A DNA stretch of 64,000 bases. Origin: Antedon mediterranea (Eukaryota; Echinodermata; Crinoidea; Comatulida; Antedonidae). The stretch is taken from positions 4,278,001 to 4,342,000 of the forward strand of contig NC_092672.1 of NCBI RefSeq assembly GCF_964355755.1, given 5' to 3'. The notes under the pieces are model-generated. The model did no database searches and had not been told where the DNA came from. It saw only the letters and a list, made by a program, of their open reading frames with translations. Every line of letters starts with the position of its first letter. The stretch's first letter is position 1. The position numbers and the translations under genes are program-made. Below, one piece after another: positions 1,664 to 31,949 of this stretch.

Positions 1664-3967
<2,304 letters not shown>

Positions 3968-11267: not shown

Positions 11268-13667
11268 ATGACTGAAACAGATACTATCATAGACGAGGCA
11301 TGTACATCTATTTCTGATGACACCGATCAAACAGCGCTCTCCCTATCAGTTGGCTCTGTGTTCGCTAACTGGGAAGAATTCAAAACTGCCATGGAAGCAT
11401 ACGAAGCTAACGCACATGTTAAGCTTATATTTGCAGACACAAGAAAAATAGAAACTGCAAACATTGCATATCGAAGGGAGGATGCTCCCGTGTATGATGC
11501 AAAGTTTAAATATGCTTATGCAAGACTTACATGTAAACACCATGGCAAATATCGTAGTAAAGGATCTGGCAAACGGCCCAATCAAAGGTGAGATATCTTT
11601 ATACAGTATTAGCCTCCATTCCTTCAATTTTGGACAGGAAATTCTTATCTTGTCTGCCGGTCTCCCAGGGTGCTGATCATGCTCTTATACTTTGACTTCT
11701 GGAAGAACAGTCTTGTACTGTGTTAAGGGGTCACCCAGTGTGAAATAGAAGAAATGATATACAATGATGGTCATGGGTCATGCTTGAGTGCATCTCATAG
11801 ACAAACATTACACCTCTAAACTATCAAGACATTTTTTATTTTCAGGAGTTACAAGACAAATTGTCCAATGCAATTTATACTGAGTGTGGATCGAGCTAAA
11901 GATATTATGTACATTCGCAGTGGCAACTTCACACACAATCACCCGACAGACGAAGATGTCGCCAAGCTGTACCCCGAAAATCGTCGGCTCAGCAAGTCCG
12001 AAAGGCAGTTCAGTAAGATACTCATGGACATGAAAGTTCCTCAAAAGGTATTTTGCGAAAGGGTGCGGGAGATGAGCCAAAAACCGCTGACAAATAAGGA
12101 TATCTATAATCTTCAAGCTCAGCTTCGTAAAGAAATGGCGGAAGAGGAGAAGACAGAGGTTCAGTCGTTACTGCATGAACTTCAGGATATAACGGAGAAA
12201 GACTCCGGGAGTGAAGTGGTGGTGAATGTTGATGGTAATGGACAGATTCAGGTTGTATTCTTTCAGACATCGTACATGAAAGAAGCTTATCTTAAGTTTC
12301 CAGAAGTTTGCATCGTAGGAGAGACAGATGACATCAACAGCAATGGGATGATTCTGTGTACCATAATGGTTCAAGATGGCAGTGGGACATTCCTTCCATG
12401 TGCTCATTTCTTACTTGCAAAATTAGATGAACCAACTATGGTATCTGCTTTTCAATTGTTTAAACAACCATTAAATGACGAAATATTTAACAAGCCATGC
12501 CTGTTCATCATAGGAAGTAGCAACTTAGATGTTGCAGTCTTTCAAAACCAGTTTCCAAATGCATCTATTAAACTATGTGAAACACAGATCTTAAAGAAAT
12601 TTAAGAATGAGACAATGAACATTGAAAACGGCAGTGAAAAACCACGAAGGCAAGGTCAACTATGGACCTTACTACACGCAATGGTGATGTCTAAGACTGA
12701 ATCGGAATACGAGGAACTTAGAACAAAAATGCAAGATTTACCATTTGCGAGTGCTTTCAACGAAACATGGCATCAACAGCGCCATCTATGGGTTGGATCA
12801 TTTAGAAACAAAGATTTGAATTATGGGATTAAGAATGCCAATAATCTTGTGAGCTTCCACGAAAAGGTCAAAGGTGTTGTGAATAGCTCAAGCACGGTGG
12901 CAGAATGCGTTAAAGGAATTCTAAAAATGGACAATCAGATGAAATTGGAGGCTAATCGTAAGAAGCTGCAAGCAATGATGACGACTTCGGTACCCATTGT
13001 CGATAACCCAGATCTAGAAGAACTTACGCAATTATGTACACGCTACGCTGTAAATTTTCTAGAGAAAGAGCTGACATTCATAACTTCCCTGAATGTTGCA
13101 CGAAATGAACTTGGCCAATTAATTATTACTGATGCGATTGGAGATAAGCAACTTGAAAATGACAACACATGTTCCTGTCTTTTCTATACAAATTTCAAAT
13201 TGCCGTGTAAACATATTTTTGCTATGCGTAAATTTCTGGAAAAGAAACTGTTTGACGATAGCATGATAGCAAGTCGATGGAGGAGGGATTACCAACATTC
13301 AGAATGTAAAGTTGAGGACATTGATTTTGCCAGCAGTCCGAGTGGAGATAAAAAGAAGAAAAGAGCAAGCACGGGCAATTCTGTTCCTGCACCTCCAGCG
13401 GCTAAAAAGGTAAAAAAAAACACCAGGAAGTCTTCAACATCCTCTCAGTCAATGACGCGTGATGAAAAATACGCCAAATCTACGCTGCTATGCCGACAGA
13501 TAGCTGGTATTATTAGTGAAGTGCCTCAACCACAGTATGAAAATAAAATTAAGATTTTAAAAGCACTTTGCACTCACTGGTTGGAAGGGAGTGAGGTTCA
13601 GCTCTTGGTCAAGTCAACTGCCAATGAGGAAGAAGATGAAGAATCGGCTCAAAATGGAAATGACTAA
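11268..13667 (+). CDS. ZSWIM1/ZSWIM3-like SWIM zinc-finger protein, transposase-derived
   Basis: Coding exons 11268-11587 and 11846-13667 give 713 aa. Order of parts: an N-terminal FAR1/WRKY-GCM1-like zinc domain (C89, C113, H137, H139); a lysine/glutamate-rich helix; an RNase H-like fold at ~231-360 recalling MULE transposases; a helical part; and a SWIM zinc finger with C549, C551, C561 and H563 (spacing C-x-C-x9-C-x-H). A basic, lysine-rich segment near 600-635 could be a nuclear signal, and the tail is acidic. In vertebrates this layout is ZSWIM1/ZSWIM3, nuclear proteins of poorly known role. The catalytic positions look lost: the usual TD of the second acidic site reads SSNLD, and the C-x2-H motif reads CETQ. 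Hence a DNA-binding, non-transposing protein is likely. It could instead be a lineage-specific MULE-derived gene rather than the ZSWIM1/3 ortholog. Confidence 0.82.
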
Positions 13668-16900: not shown

Positions 16901-17371
16901 AATTCACTGTATGGGATGCAAATCCCACTAATGGAAAATTTGTAAACAAACACAAGTTAGAAAACTTCAGCTTTGACGGCTGCACACGAACTTTGGAAAG
17001 AAACTGTCACTGACAACAAATCCAACCAATTATTCCTAAAATTAGGTGACCTGCGACATCTTAAACATATAAGGAACTGATCTTACCATATATGGTTAAT
17101 TTTTCGCCTATTAATGTTTATTAAACAGCTATAAAACGACGTATACTTTATGCTAATGTTTTCGCGCGAAACGTTGATGCCTCTGTGCCGAGAGAGGGCT
17201 TCTAAAATTAATGACGTCATGCGAAGTCGAAAATTTCGCGATAACGGTCATATTTCCCAACGCGGCTCTCCGACTGATACTGTATACTGTACCAAAATGT
17301 TTATGTTCATAGGATTACCAGAGGGCGCGCTCTTAATTTTTTTGAGGATGTGCTGTGCCAGGTATATAAAA
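13983..17371. other. Gene-poor intergenic region
   Basis: No gene recognised on either strand. It holds a retroposon tail at ~15935-16045, two near-identical 20-mers at 14972 and 16913, a small hairpin around 14820-14850 (AAAACTGTG / CACAGTTTT), a cluster of TAGGCCTA at 15140-15310, and CpG-richer patches near 14640-14710 and 17150-17340. Open frames here are short and without family marks. Confidence 0.6.
15935..16045 (+). mobile_element. Retroposon 3' tail ending in (TCAA)n
   Basis: The segment contains a polyadenylation-like AATAAAG followed by four TCAA units; GCATCTGTGCGACTCTGG just before it looks like a LINE 3' end. Family not recognised. Confidence 0.45.
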
Positions 17372-17689
17372 TATACCAAATTGGCTAGTTGAGAATTCTC
17401 AACTATTACCGCAGTACGCCTGTAACGACGAAGCCTACCGGTATAATGGGATAGGCTGATTTCCTTGTTAACTTAAGGGGTCATTTAATTACTGAATTAT
17501 GATTGGTAGTAAAGGAAATTTACTGGAATCCTATTGGATGGTAAGGTGGTAGTAGGACCATGTCCATCCCATTGCAGTAATAAAGTTGAGCCACCTGCGA
17601 CCATTACAATGTCCTACCATGCTAATGTAGGAGTGGGGAAATGTTATGCTTACTACTGTTTCTTTTAATAATTTAGTACAATTAATAAG

Positions 17690-19249
17690 AATAAAGAATA
17701 CACTTAACAATATACAACAAATAACATTAATGTACGATGTAGTTTAACACTGTTCTCAACTATAGTCATTTTGGTATACTTGAGCACATTGATAAAGAAT
17801 AGGATAAACTTAACAATATACAACAAATAACATTAATGTACAATCCCGTTTAACACTGTTCTCAACTATAGTCATTTTGGTATACTTGAGCACAGTGATA
17901 AAGAATAGGATAAACTTAACAATATACAACAACAATGTACGATCCCGTTTAACACTGTTCTCAACTATAGTCATTTTGGTATACTTGAGCACAGTGATAA
18001 AGAATAGGATAAACTTAACAATATACAACAAAAAACATTAATGTACGATCCAGTTTAACACTGTTCTCAACTATAGTCATTTTGGTATACTTGAGAACAG
18101 TTATAAAGAATAGGATAAACTTAACAATATACAACAAAAAACATTAATGTACGATCCAGTTTAACACTGTTCTCAACTATAGTCATTTTGGTATACTTGA
18201 GAACAGTGATAAAGAATAGGATAAACTTAACAATATACAACAAAAAACATTAATGTACGATCCCGTTTAACACTGTTCTCAACTATAGTCATTTTGGTAT
18301 ACTTGAGCACAGTGATAAAGAATAGGATAAACTTAATAATATACAACAAATAACATTAATGTACGATCCAGTTTACCACTGTTCTCAACTATAGTCATTT
18401 TGGTATACTTGAGCACAGTGATAAAGAATAGGATAAACTTAAAAATATACAACAAAAAACATTAATGTCCGATCCAGTTTAACACTGTTCTCAACTATAG
18501 TCATTTTGGTATACTTGAGCACAGTGATAAAGAATAGGATAAACTTAAAAATATACAACAAAAACATTAATGTACGATCCAGTTTAACACTGTTCTCAAC
18601 TATAGTTATTTTGGTATACTTGAGAACAGTGATAAAGAATAGGATAAACTTAACAATATACAACAAAAAACATTAATGTACGATCCAGTTTAACACTGTT
18701 CTCAACTATAGTCCTTTTGGTATACTTGAGCACAGTGATAAAGAATAGGATAAACTTAAAAATATACAACAAAAAACATTAATGTACGATCCAGTTTAAT
18801 ACTGTTCTCAACTATAGTTATTTTGGTATACTTGAGAACAGTGATAAAGAATAGGATAAACTTAACAATATACAACAAAAAACGTACATTAATGTACGAT
18901 CCCGTTTAACACTGTTCTCGACTATAGTCATTTTGGTATACTTGAGCACAGTGATAAAGAATAGGATAAACTTAACAATATACAACAAAAAACATTAATG
19001 TACGATCCCGTTTAACACTGTTCTCAACTATAGTCATTTTGGTATACTTGAGCACAGTGATAAAGAATAGGATAAACTTAATAATATACAACAAATAACA
19101 TTAATGTACGATCCCGTTTACCACTGTTCTCAACTATAGTCATTTTGGTATACTTGAGCACAATATACAACAAATAACATTAATGTACACGATTCTGTTT
19201 AACACTGTTCTCAACTATAGTCATTTTCATATACTTGAGCACAGTGATA
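17690..19249 (+). repeat. Left tandem array, ~105-bp unit, about 15 copies
   Basis: Each unit contains CTGTTCTCAACTATAGTCAT, then TTTGGTATACTTGAG(A/C)ACAG, then AAGAATAGGATAAACTTAA and ACATTAATGTACGATCC. CTGTTCTCAA and TTGAGAACAG pair, so every unit can form its own hairpin. Unit starts fall near 17751, 17858, 17957, 18060 and so on to 19205. Confidence 0.95.
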
Positions 19250-19254
19250 ATATG

Positions 19255-20625
19255 AAAAACATAATAACACTATAATATTTGTAGATGAATGACGCGGACA
19301 CATACATATGTTCATAAGTAATTGATATAAATTGACTTTTAAAAGTGGAATTAACACAAATGATTGTAGATAAATATGACGTGAATTGCACGTACATAAT
19401 GTTGATGAGTAGTATATTTATATAAATCGACTTTGAAAAGTGAAATAACATTAATATTTGTAGATGAATATGACGTGGACACGTACATATATTGATTAGT
19501 ATATTGATATAAATCGACTTTTAAAAGTCAAATTAACACTAATATTTGTAGATGAATATAACTTGGACACGATTTACATATGTTGATGAGTATATTGATA
19601 TAAATCGACTTTTAAAAGTGAAATAACACTAATATTTGTAGATGAATATGACGTGGACACGTACGGTACATAATGTTGATGAGTATATTGATATAAATCG
19701 ACTTTTAAAAGTGAAATAACACTATTGATTGTAGATGAATATGACGTGGACAAGTACATTTATTGATGAGTATATTGATATAAATCGACTTTTAAAAGTG
19801 AAATAATCCTATTAGTTGTACACTATTGATCATATATGAATATGACGTGAATTGCACGTACATATGTTGATGAGTAGGCCTATATTGATATAATTGACTT
19901 CGAAAAGTGAAATAACACTGATTTGTAAATGAATATGACGTGGACAAGTACATTTATTGATGAGTATATTGATAAATCGACTTTTAAAAGTGAAATAACA
20001 CTAATATTTATAGATGAATATGACGTGGACACGTACATATGTTGATGAGTATATTGATATAAATCGACTTTTAAAAGAGGAATTAACACTATTGATTGTA
20101 GACGTGAATTGCACGTACATATGTTGATGAGTGTATTGATATAAATCGACTAAACGTTAAATAACACTATCTTGTACAAGTACCCTCACTTGCACTGATG
20201 AAGGGCTAGTGTTGCCCGAAAACTCTGCTAACTTTTCTGGCTGTTTTACTTTATCGTTTTGATTTAGCTTTTCGCTTCTTTTTTTGTATCTCCATTGAGA
20301 CCACAGCATTGTTATTATTTCAGTATTTTGCCTTTGGATTTACTAATATTAAAAGTGAAATAACACCAATGACTGTAGATGATATGACATTTATGTTGAT
20401 GTATATATTTTTGTATATATAATATGCACACGTACATACGTTGATAGGTATTGATATAAATAGATTTATAAAAGTACGGTAATAGACACTTTATTTGTAG
20501 ATGAATACGACATGGACAAGTTGCAATAAATTCTATCGTTATATCGTATGTTGATGAGTATTGATATAAATCGACTTTTTTAAAGTGGAATAACACTAAA
20601 ATGTATAGATGGATAGGCCTCAACA
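19255..20625 (+). repeat. Central tandem array, ~85-95-bp unit, interrupted
   Basis: About ten units with GATGAATATGACGTGGACAC, GTACATATGTTGATGAGTAT and ATAAATCGACTTTTAAAAGT. The array is unrelated in sequence to the flanking arrays. At ~20172 it is broken by a dispersed-repeat insert and resumes at 20341 as about three diverged units. Confidence 0.9.
20172..20343 (+). mobile_element. Penelope-like element tail with hammerhead-like core
   Basis: Inserted in the central array. At 20196-20222 it reads CTGATGA, then AGGGC...GCCC able to pair as a stem, then GAAA: the order of conserved parts of a hammerhead ribozyme core, which occurs in Penelope-like retroelements. The downstream part, up to TTTGCCTTTGGA, recurs at 55713-55833 and on the minus strand at 255-352, so it is a genuine dispersed family. 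Stem I is not obvious here and one pair of stem III is mismatched, so activity is doubtful. Confidence 0.55.
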
Positions 20626-21031
20626 AGTATTGTATTAAGCGGTACTGTATATTGATAGACTTCATACCTGTAATGTCAATGAAATCTGGCAACAAGAATT
20701 GTGTTTGATCCTCCTAATAGTATTCTAATAATCTTGGTTTGTAAAGGAGGCATGAAAAATCTAAACGCATAGCCAGGGGAGGGGTTGGAGTTTCGAACAA
20801 ACTTCCCTGTGCCCGTCCTACGGTTTTTGTGAACTTTTTAGTAGCGTGCAAACGCGACTCTACAGCTCACTATGTCGATCGGTCGGTCGGTAAACACCAA
20901 CTCAAATTTGAGCACGCGACTGCAGCCATGTATAGGCCTATGGCCTGTTTATACTAGAAATCAGCAGTGAAAGTATATGTAAATAATATGTGTTAATATA
21001 GAATTAGTTTTTTTTATTTAATAAATAGTAT
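20626..21031. other. Unique spacer of the foldback element
   Basis: Not repetitive; CpG-richer than the arrays, with a run of CGGTCGGTCGGT near 20880. No reading frame with family marks. Confidence 0.5.
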
Positions 21032-23155
21032 TAAAGTTGATCTTATTCTTTATCTGTGATTAATTATACTCAAATGACTATAGTTTAAAACAGTATTAAA
21101 CGGCATCTTACATTAATGTTATTTGCTGTTTATTCGAAGTTTATCCTATTCTTTATCACTGTGCTCAAATATACCAAAATGACTATAGTTGAGAACAGTG
21201 TTAAACTGGATCGTACATTAATGTTATTTGTTGTATATTGTTAAGTTTATCCTATTCTTTATCACTGTGCTCAAGTATACCAAAATGACTATAGTTTAGA
21301 ACAGGGTTAAACTGGATCGTACACATTAATGTTATTTGTTGTATATTGTTAAGTTTATCCTATTCTTTATCACTGTGCTCAAGTATACCAAAATGACTAT
21401 AGTCGAGAACAGTGTTAAACGGGATCATACATTAATGTTATTTGTTGTATAATGTTAAGTTTATCATATTCTTTATCACTGTTCTCAAGTATCCAAAATG
21501 ACTATAGTTGAGAACAGTGTTAAACTGGATCGTACATTAATGCTATTTGTTGTAGGCCTATATTGTTAAGTTTATCCTATTCTTTATCACTGTGCTCAAG
21601 TATACCAAAATGACTATAGTCGAGAACAGTGTTAAACGGGATCGTACATTAATGTTATTTGTTGTATATTGTTAAGTTTATCCTATTCTTTATCACTGTG
21701 CTCAAGTATACCAAAATGACTATAGTCGAGAACAGTGTTAAACGGGATCGTACATTAATGTACGTTTTTTGTTGTATATTGTTAAGTTTATCCTATTCTT
21801 TATCACTGTTCTCAAGTATACCAAAATGACTATAGTTGAGAACAGTGTTAAACTGGATCGTACATTAATGTTTTTTGTTGTATATTGTTAAGTTTATCCT
21901 ATTCTTTATCACTGTTCTCAAGTATACCAAAATGACTATAGTTGAGAACAGTGTTAAACTGGATCGTACATTAATGTTTTTTGTTGTATATTTTTAAGTT
22001 TATCCTATTCTTTATCACTGTGCTCAAGTATACCAAAATGACTATAGTTGAGAACAGTGTTAAACTGGATCGTACATTAATGTTTTTTGTTGTATATTGT
22101 TAAGTTTATCCTATTCTTTATCACTGTTCTCAAGTATACCAAAATGACTATAGTTGAGAACAGTGTTAAACTGGATCGTACATTAATGCTATTTGTTGTA
22201 TATTATTAAGTTTATCCTATTCTTTATCACTGTGCTTAAGTATACCAAAATGACTATAGTTGAGAACAGTGTTAAACGGGATCGTACATTAATGTTTTTT
22301 GTTGTATATTATTAAGTTTATCCTATTCTTTATCACTGTGCTCAAGTATACCAAAATGACTATAGTCGAGAACAGTGTTAAACGGGATCATACCTTAATG
22401 CTATTTGTTGTATATTATTAAGTTTATCCTATTCTTTATCACTGTGCTTAAGTATACCAAAATGACTATAGTTGAGAACAGTGTTAAACTGGATCGTACA
22501 TTAATGTTATTTGTTGTATATTATTAAGTTTATCCTATTCTTTATCACTGTGCTCAAGTATACCAAAATGACTATAGTTGAGAACAGTGTTAAACTGGAT
22601 CGTACATTAATGCTATTTGTTGTATATTATTAAGTTTATCCTATTCTTTATCACTGTGCTCACCAAAATGACTATAGTTGAGAACAGTGTTAAACGGAAT
22701 CGTACATTAATGTTATATGTTGTATATTGTTAAGTTTATCCTATTCTTTATCACTGTGCTCAAGTATACCAAAATGACTATAGTTGAGAACAGTGTTTAA
22801 CTACATCGTACATTAATGTTATGTGTTGTATATTGTTAAGTTTATCCTATTCTTTATCACTGTGCTCAAGTATACCAAAATGACTATAGTTGAGAACAGT
22901 GTTAAACGGGATCATACATTAATTTTATTTGTTGTATAATGTTAAGTTTATCCTATTCTTTATCACTGTTCTCAAGTATCCAAAATGACTATAGTTGAGA
23001 ACAGTGTTAAACTGGATCGTACATTAATGCTATTTGTTGTATATTGTTAAGTTTATCCTATTCTTTATCACTGTGCTCAAGTATACCAAAATGACTATAG
23101 TCGAGAACAGTGGTAAACTGGATCGTACATTAATTTTATCCTTTGCTTTACTGTG
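21032..23155 (-). repeat. Right tandem array, inverted relative to the left, about 20 copies
   Basis: Units read GGATCGTACATTAATGT, TTAAGTTTATCCTATTCTTT, CACTGT(G/T)CTCAAGTATACC, AAAATGACTATAGTTGAGAA. A rare variant, with an added ACGTACATTAATGTACG palindrome next to a C-for-T change in CTCGAC, is present in both arrays (18885/18915 on the left, 21723/21755 on the right), showing that the arrays are true inverted copies. Confidence 0.95.
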
Positions 23156-23525
23156 CTTTGATTTGATAAGCAAGTTTGGTTGCCCCGCCCCCATATGTTG
23201 CCTACTAAATTAGGATTCCCTAGCTTTTCTATAAAAATTGAAGTACCCACAATGCACGTTATACGGAATTCATAGTCTTGTAAAATACAGACACAATAGT
23301 TTTTATCGTATTGTTTTCATTTAAATATCACTAAGATTGTCTTAAACTACAAACAACTAAAATTAGTGAAGGTATGCAAGTGTTTCTAAATATTTATTAC
23401 TGGTAGTATTAATACAATTTGGATTATATCATTTTCCAGAAAGGTAGAAAAAAACATAAAATAGTTGAGAATTCTCAACTAGCCAGGATGGTATAGGAAA
23501 TATAGCTCGCTGTGCTGCTGCTCTG

Positions 23526-23581: not shown

Positions 23582-26500
23582 ATGACGATGGCAAAAACTT
23601 TAAAAAACTGTATTTATTACAGCATAATTAATGCACATTTACGTCAACATCACAATGCTGCATTTCTGTCAATTGGTGGTATTAATTTACAATGGAACCG
23701 TCGATTGGCATCAAGGTAAGCGAAGGCTAGACGACCCTCTCAAACGATGAACTAGCCTCACTAGGTAGGCCTAGGCGGCCTACTCCAGAGCTAGAGCTAG
23801 GCCTGGCTAGAAAAGTAGTTTACTCAGGCTGGTTAGCAGCGCAACGCAGCTGAGTTATGTTGTTGGAGGAGGTGCTGCTGCATGCGGCCGGGCCTGGTAT
23901 GCCCAGCAAGCTAGGCTCTAGGCTAAAATTATTAATTGTTTTATTCTTTTAAAGAAAATTACAAGCAGTAGGTAAGCTGGAAAATCCAAAGCCACAGGGA
24001 AAATATCCAACTGGACAGGTTAGATTTTCATTCATTTATTTGTATTATTAATTAATAAATATCATGATGGGATATATAATTTCAGATTTTTTTAAATATT
24101 TTTTTTAAACCATATTTAATGAGGGTGATCCATCCAGCTATTGCTGATCATTAGGGACCCTCAGAGGTTCACAAGACAAACATATACACAAGATGCTCTA
24201 CATAAACAAAGTCTTATTACAAGTCTTTGTTGGGAGTGGAGTAATTTGGTCCTTGTAGCCAAGCATCATAACCACCAAGTCACAACTCCACTCCGAATGA
24301 ATGTGATAATGTATTTAAACAAGCAATTCTGTATCAAAATACAGTAACTTTCTGTTACGACTACGTTAATTATTAACAGACGCTTTTTTATTTTTAATAA
24401 ATAATAGTTTATATAATATATATTATTAATATTATAATAAATATAGTTTTAACATTTTTTTCTTTTTTCAGCTCTTTCTTCATAAAGTGTTTGGTTACAG
24501 AGGTATTTTGTTATTCCCGTGGCTTGCAAGACTTTATGACCGAGATGTAGGCAATAAAAATACTGAAAGGTACAGTATGATGTAACAACCAAGAATGTAG
24601 TTGTGTTAAGAAGAGATCGATGAACTTACCCAAGTTTATTAAAGCCATTTGTACAGCTTCAAAAACACTTTAGATCTAAAAAAAAACACACAAACATTTG
24701 TTTGCAGTTTGTCTGATTTGGATCATCTTTCTTTGTCTTTTATAACTGTTTTTAACTTGGCAGAAATTTAAAAAAATAAAATAAATATATTGAAATACAA
24801 ATTATAAATAATATGAAAATAAATTGGCTATAACTAAATTTCTGATTACCCAAAGTTAATAATAAATATGAACTATTTATTTGCAAAAAAATGAAACCAT
24901 CTAGAGCTATCAAACAAGTTTGACAAAAAAAAGTGTGATTTTCCCAAATATGGTAGTGATAGTATGGTTAATAATATGAAAATAAATTGTCCATTTAGTA
25001 TAACAAAATTTCTGATTACTTAAAGTTAAAAATGAATTGTAATAAACTGTTTGCAAAATAAGCAAACCGTCTAAAGCTCTGTCTACACTATCAAACTAGT
25101 GTGATGTGCCCAAATATGGTAGTGATATGCTTAAATACGGTAGTGATATGACATCATCATTTCCATATATGGGCACATCACATTTTTTTGCCACATAAAG
25201 TTTGATAACAAAAAAGTTTGACATAAGCATGAACACCAGTACCAGAGGCATATTTTCATTTTACAACAATCTATGTACTGTATTATATTTTTATAGTAAT
25301 ATGTTTTCATTAATGGGGGCTATATAAATCCATAAAGGACTAAGAAAACCTAAACTTATAAATTGGTTGCAAGTATGTGACTTACCCAGTATACACTGGA
25401 ATCCTCTGAAACCTACAACAAATTGAATTACAGTACCATTAATAAAGCATGTTATTTAAAAATTTCAAATGATTATGAGTCTAAAGCTTTGTCTACACAT
25501 ATTATAATATGGGCACATCACATGTTGTTGTCACATACAATTTGATGTGTAGACAGAGCTTAACATAAACAATTTTTTTAACAAGCTATTTACTGTATTA
25601 TATTTTTATCATATTTTTTGATCTCTGTATTTAGTTCACAGAATGAAATTGACGGTGAACACATTGACAGCAGTAACAAAGAGGTCCAGGGAAAGACACA
25701 GACTTACTATCAAGTTCTCATTGATTCTAGGGATTGTCCATTCATTGTAATTCATCATTGATTATGTAAAAGGATAAAATAATAACAATTGATATGTATA
25801 TAGATGTAATTATTGGCCATGATAACCCATGATCACGGTCAATTTTGGTAGCGCCTTGAGCACTTCTGTGGATATGCGTTCTTTATACATTATTATTATT
25901 ATTCATTGTCCATTGCAAGCATTTGTTATTTTTATATCAATCCAAAAGCTAATTACTGAAAAAAATGAAAATTCTACAGAGTGGCTGAATCTCTAACAAT
26001 ACTGTAATAACAAACAGAAATATTTGCTGGAAAACACTGTTTCTCTGTCTATGACTGTTTAAAATAAAGTGGTTAGTTATAAATCTCAAGGAATCGGCAC
26101 TATTATGCTACGTAATCACGTAGCCATAACATCGGCAGGGGTTTGAGGCTCACTCACTCCATGGTTCTGGTGGTAGAACGAGTCTTCTCGGATAAGGACT
26201 ATAAACCGTAGGTCCAGTGTACACAACTTGCTCGTGTGCACTTTAAAGAACCTAGTACATCTTTCGAGACGAGTAGGGGGTCACCCCGGTGTATTAGTAC
26301 ATCACAGCCACTGATCACCAACTGGGCCCTCTGGGAGATCAGTCTTTGACTGAAGAGGTCACCCAGTATAAAGATAAAACAAACAAACAAACTATCTTTC
26401 TCAAAGGTGGCAATTCTGTTCACAAGACAAACATAATATACACAAGATGCTCTACATTAATCTTATCAGTATCTTATTACAAGTCTGTAGGAGTGGAGTT

Positions 26501-29500
26501 ATAATTTGTCTTGTTGGTTTTATGTTATTTCTAGCATAAACACACTTTCAATACATTCCTTATACAGATATGAGTATAGCACTGGTACAGTATTATATTT
26601 AATTTTCAGAGAGCTCAAACAGAAGCCGTAACGTTCCTTGGAAATCAAGACAACAACAGGTCTTTATATGCCATACCAGGTATTTTGAGATTTAATCATT
26701 TTACCTTGACTTAATATTACAAATGTAATACTGATTTGATTGCATCCCCAAAATGTTCATGTACATTGATTTGGTCAGACATACTTCCAAACTTTACCCC
26801 AATGTGTATTCCTAACCTCTAAAAGTAGGGAAGAGTGAAATCACACTCTTTCCTGAAAAGATGAAGTAAAAGCATAGCCAAACAATAAAGTGTGCTATAA
26901 TGATTTAAAAATATTTCAGTATACTAATAAATCTATAGAGGGCACTATTATAAAAATCTGTAACAATACATCAACATCTATAGTAAACACTGGGCATTTA
27001 ATGGAAGTCAGTAATTTATTGGTACTCACTTTCGAATCAGTGGCACACATCTTTCGGTGGTGCGTCCATACAAATATAAACAATAAAATAAAAAAAATAT
27101 GTGAAGAAAAAAAAATGGACCTTTCAGTCACTATGCCTTTATAACCTCAATGGTTGTTATAACTATAGTATGTTATTTTCCCAGGATTAGACTATGTTGC
27201 CCATGAAGATATTTTACCATACTCATCGGCGGATAAAACTCCACTACAGCATGAGCTGTTTGATAAGTTTCTGGAATTAAAATCAGGACAAGGTATGGAT
27301 TAACTGTGTAACTGTTATTGTACATCTATAAACTAACCTTCTTACAGGAAGAATTAAAAGCAGTACAATCAAAACACACAAATCAATAGAAACATAATAT
27401 ACAAATAATGAATGTTTATGAGTGCAATGGTACAAATAATGGCACAAGGTGAATGATGAAAGGTTATATCAACGAGTCAAAGCCGAGTTGATATAACCTT
27501 TCATCATTCACCAAGTGCCATTATTTGTACCATTACATGAATACAAAACATTCATTATTTGTTTTATATAACATCTAGACGTTTTTTTTTCGTACACAAA
27601 AATGTTTCAAAAAGTACTATTTAACGATCGTTGAATAGTGCGTACTATTGCACGCCATGTGACCCACATTCGTCCAATCAAATGACAGGAATTTATATAG
27701 GTGTTATATAACATGGAATAAATAATAAGTAGGCCTACAATGGTATTGATAATTTCTATGAATTTTTATTAAATTATTAATTTATTAAAATTATTTACAA
27801 AAATACATCATAACTAGATACATTATAAGATTATAACACTATATTTAAGTCTTCAAATTTACACCGAAAAATTAGTAGTAGAATATTATAATTTTGTATT
27901 TATTTTTTTTTTACATTTTAGAGATATTATAATATTTTCTATTAATACTATACCTGTATTTGAAATGTTTTGCTTACACAGTACACAACATCCATAAAAT
28001 ACTCAAAAACAGTTTTGTTAACATATTTAAAAAGTCACTTTGTCCAGACCACTTTCTATAAAATTCTTCTTAATATCCCTGAAAAATGGCAAATTTTTCC
28101 AAACTTTTATTTAATATGTTTTAACTTCCAATTGCAACTCAGAAATATAATTTATGATTATTTTTTCAGAACCACCTTTCGTAGCAAAAGATACTCTTAA
28201 AGCGTGGCAGGAAAAGAACCACCCCTGGTTAGAGTTGTCCGACGTTCACCGTGAAACGACAGAGAATGTACGGGTCACTGTCATACCTTTTTACATGGGT
28301 ACTAGGGTAAGTTTTTATTAAGAACATTATTTAAAAAGAAAAACATGATGAATGATCATATCATGTCTCATCTCTAATTGAACTAAAGCTTTGTCTACAC
28401 TATCAAACTTAATGTGACAACAAAATGTGATGTGCCCATATATGGACATGATGATGTCATATCACTACCATATTTGGGCATATCACTACCATATTTGAGC
28501 ACATCACACTTTTTTTGTCAAACTTGTTTGATAGTGTAGACAAAGCTTTAGACTCATAATCATTTGAAATATTTAAATAACATGCTTATTAATGGTACTG
28601 TAATTCAATTTGTTGTAGGTTTCAGAGGATTCCAGTGTATACTGGGTAAGTCACATACTTGCAACCAATTTATATGTTAGTTCTGGTTTTCTTTATCCTT
28701 TATGGATTCATATAGCCCCATTAATGAAAACATATTACTTTGGTATCTTGTCATACACAATGCTTAAAAAAATTGTAAATTATCTTATACTGTAGTAGCT
28801 TAATTATAATGATGCAATTCGTAAGTATATCTCAACCTTTGTTTTTCCTAGTGGAGGTACTGTATTCGACTTGAGAACCTAGGTAAAGAAACTGTTCAGT
28901 TACGAGAGCGACATTGGAGGATATTCAGCTTATCAGGCACATTAGAAACTGTGAGAGGAAGAGGAGTTGTTGGCCAGGTTAGTTTTAGATAGGAAGCTTT
29001 TGCTTCTTGTGCGGGTCACAGTTGTTATTGTTATAAATGCGTATGGCTTCTGCCGTATGGTAGTTTTCCGATTAATCGTACGATCAAACGGTACTGGGTA
29101 TGATCAACTAGCGTTCGTGTTCCCACCTAATCATCCATTCATAGAAGTACTGATGAAGATATCAATCTGTGGCGACAATAGAATGCACCCGAGACCTGGC
29201 TATCTTCGACTTTTAAATAATAGAAAGTTTAGAAATTTTTTGTTAGACTAGAAATGTACGTTGTATGTATATAGAAAAATGGTTGTAGTTTTCAAAATTA
29301 CGTTGTATAAGTTTTCAAAATTACGTTGTATAAGTTGCGATGTGAAAAACTGTTATTTGATCGTTAGTTGTCGTGTACATAAAGCAAAAACATAAATACT
29401 GTATAATAAAATAAAAATCGTTACGGACAACCAATCATAATATGCCTAGTCCAGGCCATCAGTACCTGTAACATGCATTAGCCTCGAGGCCTACAAGCAC

Positions 29501-30377
29501 ATACTTTAAACCACACTGCTTGTGAATTCGGCGCGCTATGTAAATGGGACAAGCTACGCAGGTTTCCCCTTACCTTTAACTCTTACCGTTACCACTCTTC
29601 AGTGTAAATTGGCCTTTATGAATCGTGATAGCACTAGCCAATTACCATCTCCCCAATTGTGAGAGCTACCACAACTACACCAATTTCCATCTCCTGCTAA
29701 TTTATTAAGTAAAGTCTCTGTTCAAAACTCATGATAAATGTCTTTCTTTGTTAAAGGAACCTATTTTATCTAAAGAACAGCCAGCATTTCAGTACAGTAG
29801 TCACGTATCATTGCAAGCACCAAGCGGACATATGTGGTGAGTAGTGCGTGATGGTATACCAAGTCTTTGTCTACACTATCAAACAAAAAAGTGTGTGCCC
29901 ATCATCATGTCCATATATGGGCACATCACATTTTTTTTGTCACATAAAGTTTGATAGTCTAGTCAGGGCTATAAGATCTGTCAAAAAAAGTGTGACGATC
30001 CCAAATATGGTAGTGATATCATCATCATCATCATCAGCATCATCGTATATGGGCACATCACATTTTTTGTCACATAAAGTTTGATAGTGTAGACAGGGCT
30101 TTAAGATCTGTCAAAAGTAGTGATATGATGTTATCCTGCCTCCTGAAACAAGGGCTTAGGGAACATGTTTAGCCAGTTACAGTAACATCACATGGTGTTG
30201 TCATGGTTTCTTAGAATAGCTATGATAAAAGGTAGTGAAACTTTTGTTCTGTTTTTCCACAGGGGCACATTCCGTATGGAACGAAATGATGGATATTCCT
30301 TCGATTGCCGTATACCACCATTCACGCTGGAAAGTAAACAAAGTGAAACAAATAATCCGCACGGATTCTTTGGATAA
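23582..30377 (+). CDS. POLDIP2: POLDIP2, polymerase delta-interacting protein 2 (YccV-like + ApaG domains)
   Basis: Eleven exons: 23582-23715, 23955-24018, 24472-24569, 25635-25746, 26610-26679, 27185-27292, 28170-28306, 28619-28645, 28852-28977, 29757-29836, 30263-30377; phases close to 356 aa (human 368). The protein is mainly mitochondrial in vertebrates, and has been tied to DNA polymerase delta/PCNA, PrimPol and redox or lipoylation control. The first ~45 residues are basic/hydrophobic without acids, as for a matrix signal. The YccV-like part starts at LFLHKVFGYRGILLFPW (~67) and includes TYYQVLIDSRDCP and AIPGLDYVAHEDILPY. The ApaG/DUF525 part covers VTVIPFYMG, WRYCIRLENL, LRERHWRIFSLSGTLETVRG and GVVGQEPILS. 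Exon 8 is only 27 nt. An in-frame second ATG at 23588 is also possible. Confidence 0.96.
24118..24163 (+). repeat. Short dispersed element, GAGGGTGATCC...ACCCTCA, POLDIP2 intron 2
   Basis: Same family as 6478-6542 and 9965-10016; its ends GAGGGT and ACCCTC are complementary. It is followed directly by a second repeat (24165-24345) starting GTTCACAAGACAAACAT. Confidence 0.5.
24165..24345 (+). repeat. Dispersed repeat GTTCACAAGACAAACAT, copy 1
   Basis: Related copies begin at ~26417 and ~45712; the first two share ACACAAGATGCTCTACAT and ATTACAAGTCT. The frame open across it has no family marks. Confidence 0.5.
24808..25072 (+). repeat. Direct segmental duplication including a MITE fragment, POLDIP2 intron 3
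   Basis: 24808-24910 and 24969-25085 share AATATGAAAATAAATTG, AAATTTCTGATTAC and the run into a MITE terminus. The first MITE (24901-24966) is truncated to AGCTATCAAAC...GGTAGTGATA. Confidence 0.65.
25073..25214 (+). mobile_element. MITE family M1, POLDIP2 intron 3
   Basis: Left end TAAAGCTCTGTCTACACTAT is intact; the right end stops at AAAGTTTGATAAC. Two GGTAGTGATATG units precede the centre. Confidence 0.85.
25300..25499 (-). repeat. Inverted copy of POLDIP2 microexon 8 and its flanks, in intron 3
   Basis: The reverse complement of this stretch matches 28532-28738 at roughly 95 percent by eye. All 27 bases of microexon 8, its AG acceptor and its GTAAGT donor are unchanged in the copy, but on the strand opposite to transcription. 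One border merges with a shortened MITE. Confidence 0.9.
25481..25561 (+). mobile_element. MITE family M1, internally deleted, POLDIP2 intron 3
   Basis: Both ends are kept (AAAGCTTTGTCTACAC and GTGTAGACAGAGCTTA) but the middle is reduced to ~45 bp. Confidence 0.8.
25780..25913 (+). mobile_element. Retroposon 3' tail ending in (ATT)n
   Basis: GCGCCTTGAGCACTTCTGTG and GGATATGCGTTCTTTATA precede four ATT units. A reverse-complement relative with TTGAGTGC-type core and (AAT)n lies at 47683-47790. This is a widespread type of SINE/LINE tail. Confidence 0.5.
26090..26416 (-). repeat. Dispersed repeat family R2, copy 1, POLDIP2 intron 4
   Basis: The reverse complement has TTCTTTAAAGTGCACA, TGTGTACACTGGACCTACG and TTATAGTCCTT in the same order as 53040-53310, where the repeat lies on the plus strand. 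Not a recognised family; a LINE or LTR untranslated region is possible. Confidence 0.6.
27408..27557. mobile_element. Near-perfect 48-bp-arm palindrome, POLDIP2 intron 6
   Basis: Arms 27426-27473 and 27487-27534 match at 46 of 48 positions around a 13-base loop; outer flanks AATGAATGTTT also pair. A solo relic of the outer part is at ~45525 (TGAATGTTTATGAATG). The form is that of a foldback MITE unrelated to family M1. Confidence 0.85.
28384..28551 (+). mobile_element. MITE family M1, full-length, POLDIP2 intron 7
   Basis: Ends TAAAGCTTTGTCTACACTAT and GATAGTGTAGACAAAGCTTT pair over at least 20 bases; two CACTACCATATTTG units in the right half. It abuts the inverted duplication containing exon 8. 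Confidence 0.92.
28532..28738 (+). repeat. Exon 8 arm of the POLDIP2 inverted duplication
   Basis: Contains the end of a MITE, intron 7 sequence, exon 8 (28619-28645) and the first ~90 bp of intron 8. It is the partner of 25300-25499. Confidence 0.9.
29861..30127 (+). mobile_element. Two abutting MITE family M1 copies, POLDIP2 intron 10
   Basis: The first runs from TTTGTCTACACTATCAAAC to AGTTTGATAGTCTAGTCAGG (~29971); the second, lacking its left end, ends in GATAGTGTAGACAGGGCTTT at ~30104. Both are followed by the same string AAGATCTGTCAAAA, so one junction was duplicated with the element. A short ATC run lies in the second. Confidence 0.8.
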
Positions 30378-31949
30378 TCCTAAAAATCAAATTCTTCCAT
30401 AAAATGATATGTGCAATATAATCAAATTGTTGATTTTTTGCGGCTGATAATTTAAAACACCGTCAACTCGCTCGCGCACAGACTGCCCCAAAATATGGTT
30501 TTTAGAATTTTGTGGTTTGGAAAGGGTTTTCTGGTTTGAACGAGTTAACTATTTCAATTTTCTGAAATCATATATATCAGATATATCAGCAGATGAAAAG
30601 GTAAAATAATTAAGCAGAATCACCTAAAGAAATAACAGTTGAGAGGCTCTTCACATTGAAATATCACATCGCGTGGAGTTGCATAATACATATTTCAAAA
30701 TTTAAATTTTAAGGTCTAGAATGTTATACAGGGTGAACAGAATTATTATAAATACTGGAGTGTACAATAAAAATGTATTTAAAAATAATTTTGTTAGACT
30801 AAGCAATTTTGATCCAAGAATTGAGGCCTATTCATACTAGGGTTATTATGAACGGAGATAAATAAAGTATACATTTTTTCTACAGAAAACAAAATAAATG
30901 TATATTTGGTCCTAGTATAAATAGACCTTTAAGTTATTTTATTGTTGCACATTGAAAAAATTTAAGTTTAAAACTCTGTCTACACTAGTTTGACAAAAAG
31001 AAGTGTGATGTGCTAAATATGGTAGTGATATGCCTAAATATGGTAGTGATATGACATCATCATGTCCATATATGGGCATATCACATTTTTGTAAACAAAA
31101 AGTTTGATAGTGTAGACAGAGATTAAGGTTTATATCAAAAGATGTAATGTATATGTATACATGTACTATATGCTTAACCTAAGCATCTGTTGATATTATA
31201 TTGTAGAAAATATTTATTGAAGTTGCAGTCTGAATACAGTAATATATTTCATAATTTAGAAATTGTGACTTATATAATCAAAAGCATTTAAATTGAGGAG
31301 AATGATTTTGATTAAAAATATGACTGACCTTAACTATGCAAATTTTTTTTTTTTTTATCTTGCAAGTATAAATTGTAGTTTTGTCTTTCTTTCTGTACTT
31401 TGATTGAAAATTTTTATTTTAAACCGGAAACTTACTAGTTTGATGAGTAAAAAAAAGTGCCTTGATTGTGCAACCTCAAAATAGTCCCAATAGGCTTAAT
31501 TGCGAGAAAAATAACAGTTGATTAACTGCATGATTTAACCCTATTTGTGAAATATCATGAATTTTACGTAAAAAATAAAAAATTTCAAATGTATTTGTTT
31601 TTTATTTATTTTTGTTCTTGTCCCATACAAAGTGCACACGGGTCAACATGAGGTTATTAAAAAATCTATGAAAGAAAATGCGTATTTTATTTTTTTTTTT
31701 TTTTTTAAATTAAAATGAAATTTAAAAATGAAAGTAGGCCCTCTATCCTCCGGACACTGAACTGAAACTTTTTAGTTAGAAAAGTAGGGGTATTAAATAC
31801 CGACGTGTATGCAAATTCGAAGAAAACTCAAATTGCATTAGTATTTATTTAAAACTTTAATACTATTCATTTACCATGAATCAAAGAAACAAAAAATGTA
31901 AACAAAGAACTCAACATAAGTCGTATCCCCATTGATGATCGCAAGGGCA
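30378..31949. other. POLDIP2 3' UTR and POLDIP2-NCOR intergenic region
   Basis: A likely polyadenylation signal AATAAA is at 30766-30771. A short inverted repeat is at 30823-30935 (GGCCTATTCATACTAGG against CCTAGTATAAATAGACC) and a MITE at 30970-31125. Two runs of T near 31340 and 31690. No gene seen. Confidence 0.6.
30970..31125 (+). mobile_element. MITE family M1, POLDIP2-NCOR intergenic
   Basis: Ends AAAACTCTGTCTACACTAGT and GATAGTGTAGACAGAGATTA; central core GATATGACATCATCATGTCC. Confidence 0.88.

Follow-up and report, generated by a model that had tools for sequence, protein, structure and literature searches.

The window analyzed here, a 64,000-nucleotide stretch of the genome of the crinoid Antedon mediterranea (positions 4,278,001 to 4,342,000 of contig NC_092672.1), carries the POLDIP2 gene on its forward (+) strand. 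With their introns, exons 3 to 11 occupy positions 24472 to 30378, where the GT-AG borders were checked and one open frame runs through the coding sequence. The exons lie at 24472-24569 (exon 3), 25642-25746 (exon 4), 26610-26679 (exon 5), 27185-27292 (exon 6), 28170-28306 (exon 7), 28619-28645 (exon 8), 28852-28977 (exon 9), 29757-29836 (exon 10), and 30263-30378 (exon 11, stop codon included). Exon 1 was not located; the gene model covers these nine exons and the end of exon 2 (GKYPTGQ, at about 24018), whose recognizable sequence is consistent with the numbering. The spliced product matches human POLDIP2 (PDB 6z9c) end to end with an E value of 6e-151, which bears out the identity that an earlier note had assigned to the gene from the DNA letters.

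Exon 8 measures 27 nt (GTTTCAGAGGATTCCAGTGTATACTGG), is preceded by tgtag and followed by gtaagt, and is in phase 0. Its residues, VSEDSSVYW, align without gaps to human POLDIP2 between two strongly conserved stretches, and we take them to join two strands of the ApaG fold. A literature search on POLDIP2 splicing or circular RNAs found no report among the ten papers listed. Two other features were seen in and near the gene. Intron 6 contains a near-perfect palindrome (27401-27562) with arms of 51 nt and a loop of 13 nt, reaching -96 kcal/mol as RNA. Upstream of POLDIP2, a 599-codon open frame (11868-13667) harbors in its C-terminal third a CxCx9CxH motif that resembles a SWIM zinc finger.

Extent and divergence of an inverted exon 8 copy

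In intron 3, positions 25295-25498 are the reverse complement of 28534-28739, with 94.2% identity over the 208 columns of a local alignment, and both segments lie inside POLDIP2. The near-identical inverted pair that the earlier note had placed in the introns of this gene was thus confirmed, its edges being corrected to 25295 and 28739. On the + strand, the source arm (28534-28739) begins within the end of a MITE that we call MITE-C and continues through the last part of intron 7 and all of exon 8 into intron 8. The copy of exon 8 and its flanking intron 7 and intron 8 sequence fills 25295-25476 on the - strand, with the exon itself at 25386-25412. Six substitutions and three indel events separate the 204-base copy from its source, and the alignment also confirmed that the exon, the acceptor AG, and the GTAAGT donor are identical in both. 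That the pair was produced by an assembly or library artefact, such as a chimeric inverted read, is hardly credible, since these nine differences are spread over the arms and the junction is elaborate, unlike what inverted chimeras display.

Searching the whole genome (354 Mb) recovered the exon-bearing segment at two places only, with an E value of 3e-84, which excludes chance and indicates that the copy is a local duplication and no dispersed repeat. The 44 further matches to the query were confined to its MITE end. Insertion of the exon copy as a transposon or MITE was rejected, because many copies with shared ends would then be expected, as opposed to two genomic places.

The MITE family in question is about 170 bp long, has terminal inverted repeats, and is present in many copies genome-wide. 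By alignment, its intron 7 member MITE-C (28383-28554, - strand) ends 64 bp upstream of exon 8. At the end of the inverted unit, alignment and BLAST identified MITE-B (25477-25561, + strand), which retains MITE positions 1-22 and 115-170. Its left part is unbroken with the exon copy, and both of its ends align to the intron 7 MITE, the middle being deleted. Since similarity to the intron 7 MITE resumes beyond this internal gap, at 25507-25561, the duplicated unit is larger than previously described.

We also considered whether the unchanged exon carries information on how the copy has been maintained. A given block of 27 nt would be free of changes with a probability of 0.27, and the longest clean run, 86 nt across exon 8, has a P value of 0.06. 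When excess conservation of the exon and splice sites was sought relative to the rest of the arms, Fisher's test gave a P value of 0.59. Given these three values, the unchanged exon is no evidence for exchange or function, and the proposal that a lack of drift points to continued sequence exchange did not hold up. A fairly recent copy is enough to account for the likeness of the arms.

Junctions, origin, and frequency of such duplications

The order of features in intron 3 is MITE-A, Y, inverted exon 8, MITE-B, and Y'. MITE-A (25069-25215, + strand) lies in the opposite orientation to the intron 7 MITE, to which it is 84% identical over 153 columns. Y (25252-25294, + strand) is the stretch immediately left of the copy, and Y' (25572-25609, + strand), just right of MITE-B, is a second version of it. 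The match between Y and Y' scored 53, whereas 2000 dinucleotide shuffles reached at most 39 and comparisons at 3169 other positions of the window at most 31. The similarity of Y and Y' stops exactly at the junction of the copy (25294/25295). A genome search with Y returned no further match. No clear microhomology was found at the left junction of the copy, while MITE homology is present at the right one.

Farther left, intron 3 contains an older tandem duplication (24807-25068, + strand), whose two units (24807-24898 and 24970-25068) are 76% identical; directly behind each unit stands a fragment of this MITE. A MITE piece in the opposite orientation to the intron 7 MITE lies at 24907-24961. 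A genome search found the duplicated sequence at just these two places, which makes it a second duplication private to this intron and again associated with this MITE family.

Directly observed are the two arms, the absence of further copies of them, a MITE at one border of the copy, and a duplication of Y that terminates at the opposite border. The explanation that we find best, and consider probable, is a locus-specific inverted duplication arising by replicative template switching between opposite MITEs, with a mostly neutral consequence. The origin is supported by the local reverse-complement copy, the MITE homology on the right, the Y/Y' duplication ending at the left junction, and the second duplication in the same intron. 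We thus infer that the copy is likely to have originated by template switching between the inverted MITEs of introns 3 and 7, the mechanism and the order of steps being reconstructed as follows. Having reached the end of Y, a nascent strand would have departed from intron 3 and switched to the opposite strand at 28739, which it copied across exon 8 as far as the intron 7 MITE. Homology between the MITEs would then have brought it back into intron 3, where it copied Y a second time, giving rise to Y'. Since Y and Y' have diverged more than the arms have (4 of 36 sites versus 6 of 198; Fisher P = 0.05), Y was perhaps duplicated earlier than the exon was copied.

One edge of the copy lies within a MITE with which the copy is continuous, as would also be seen if transposon capture or ectopic gene conversion had moved or converted a MITE-bounded exon 8 segment into intron 3, with no replication slip. 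The other edge is without a MITE end, and a third copy is absent from the whole genome, which makes this origin very improbable.

Inverted repeats left by short-range template switching have been documented in great apes (PMC7954356), and a replication-based switch, microhomology-mediated break-induced replication, has been proposed for human copy-number variants (PMC2621351). The POLDIP2 copy shares with such cases a nearby reverse-complement copy, sharp junctions, and a duplicated flank; it differs from them by its larger span (3 kb), by the probable assistance of MITE homology in the return, and by taking in an entire exon together with the splice sites.

The base rate of such duplications was estimated from 200 kb of DNA taken at arbitrary places in this genome, in which we collected inverted pairs that were 50 bp or longer, 85% or more identical, and no more than 10 kb apart. 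This sample contained a single locus-specific duplication (L021), along with a repeat family (L027) and an element carrying satellite arrays in inverted orientation (L028). The L021 arms (1284-1441 and 1887-2042; 158 bp, 94%) have no match outside their locus, where a weaker third copy in direct orientation was noticed at about 1176-1270. L027 was rejected as a second local inverted duplication since it is a repeat family of at least 40 copies. Its element (L027:6548-10000) has inverted ends of about 490 bp, some 3 kb apart, with at least 40 matches at 96 to 100% identity, which suggests a young DNA transposon bounded by long terminal inverted repeats.

An element of the same kind as that of L028 (325-10000), likewise with inverted satellite arrays, lies in the window at 17349-23509. 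This composite element has inverted arrays of a 106-bp satellite at 17668-19267 and 21034-23139, separated by a spacer with repeats of about 87 bp. Because a version about 94% identical in arrays and flanks is found on another contig, it seems to be mobile, or to have been copied, as a unit that carries inverted satellite arrays.

Scaled up, one event per 200 kb would mean roughly a thousand such events genome-wide, the error being wide (from tens to about ten thousand), and some of these inverted duplications should include exons. The process is ordinary; that it happened to take in an entire microexon along with both splice sites makes the locus a good test case.

Predicted RNA pairing and its possible consequences

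In the computed fold of 24472-29000, 193 of the 206 arm positions are paired, as are all 36 positions of exon 8 and its splice sites, 16 of which became unpaired once the copy was deleted in silico. The arm duplex amounts to about -308 kcal/mol. As an equilibrium computation for naked RNA, the fold overstates pairing in the cell. The duplex of about 200 bp over exon 8 and both splice sites that had been postulated is thus the computed minimum-energy state. Looping out of exons 4 to 7, also postulated, is already given by MITE-A and the intron 7 MITE alone, which form a 136-pair duplex of -205 kcal/mol and loop out the same exons without the exon copy. Since opposite MITEs provide for this loop, the potential for circularization is not particular to the copy, and the fold predicts that the copy's particular effect would be the covering of exon 8 rather than the looping of exons 4 to 7. 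The intron 7 MITE also pairs with a MITE downstream of the POLDIP2 stop codon (30965-31127) at -229 kcal/mol.

The copy could be read as a cis-acting splicing switch that masks exon 8 and places exons 4 to 7 in a loop, leading to in-frame skipping, to a circular RNA of exons 4 to 7, or to both. In its favor, the fold pairs exon 8 and its splice sites fully, and the exon is 27 nt long and in phase 0, so that skipping would, as the earlier note had stated, preserve the frame. There is also a precedent in inverted Alus, which when located in one intron, within tens of bases of an exon, push this flanking exon to alternative splicing (PMC2533698). The two systems have in common complementary stretches that flank or touch exons in one pre-mRNA; in POLDIP2, in contrast to the Alu pairs, the arms are single copy and contain the exon, and the predicted pairing covers the exon instead of merely joining introns. 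Against such a switch, the copy is conserved no better than chance, and its partner lies downstream by about 3.1 kb (from the end of intron 3 at 25641 to the end of the partner at 28739). Moreover, the loss of VSEDSSVYW would probably harm the ApaG domain, since these residues are ungapped relative to human and presumably join two strands; we infer that harm is more likely than a useful form of the protein. Finally, rice MITEs are found in both flanks of few circular RNAs, namely 72 of 2354 (PMC4647462). A splicing switch is unlikely, and on balance a regulatory role is unlikely to be strong.

In some human genes, an intron persists until transcription has gone beyond its junction by up to about 2 kb (PMC11959613). 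For the POLDIP2 copy, a mostly neutral effect is most likely, judging from general knowledge of splicing kinetics. By the time its partner, 3.1 kb downstream, has been transcribed, intron 3 would often have been removed already, or local folding or proteins would have intervened. The transcripts that keep intron 3 would perhaps undergo some exon 8 skipping, form circles of exons 4 to 7, or be subject to A-to-I editing.

The last of these outcomes would be the main one if the copy were a distant editing partner, through which ADAR would edit exon 8 in transcripts keeping intron 3 and thereby recode a few residues or mark the RNA. The unchanged run of 86 bp across exon 8 is in principle enough for ADAR, and edited exons with intronic partners are known. 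Known ADAR editing complementary sequences resemble the present arrangement in that an intronic sequence is complementary to an exon, but they are usually near, in the adjoining intron, whereas here the partner is far away in another intron, 3.1 kb upstream and with four exons between. Long perfect duplexes are also edited promiscuously. We regard an editing role as quite improbable. A further idea, that an antisense exon copy which arose at random in a distant upstream intron may act as a built-in antisense lock on exon inclusion, paced by the splicing of the upstream intron, also seems to us improbable.

The copy belongs to a known kind and offers a clear natural test case. Should the arms pair in living cells, this would be a natural counterpart of an antisense oligonucleotide, with exon 8 covered only in transcripts that hold intron 3, and inclusion of exon 8 would report the order of splicing. 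If the pairing does nothing, a near-perfect complement of about 200 bp spanning an exon would be tolerable when the partner's intron leaves early. As the arms that contain the exon are confined to this locus, POLDIP2 of A. mediterranea would provide a clean test either way.
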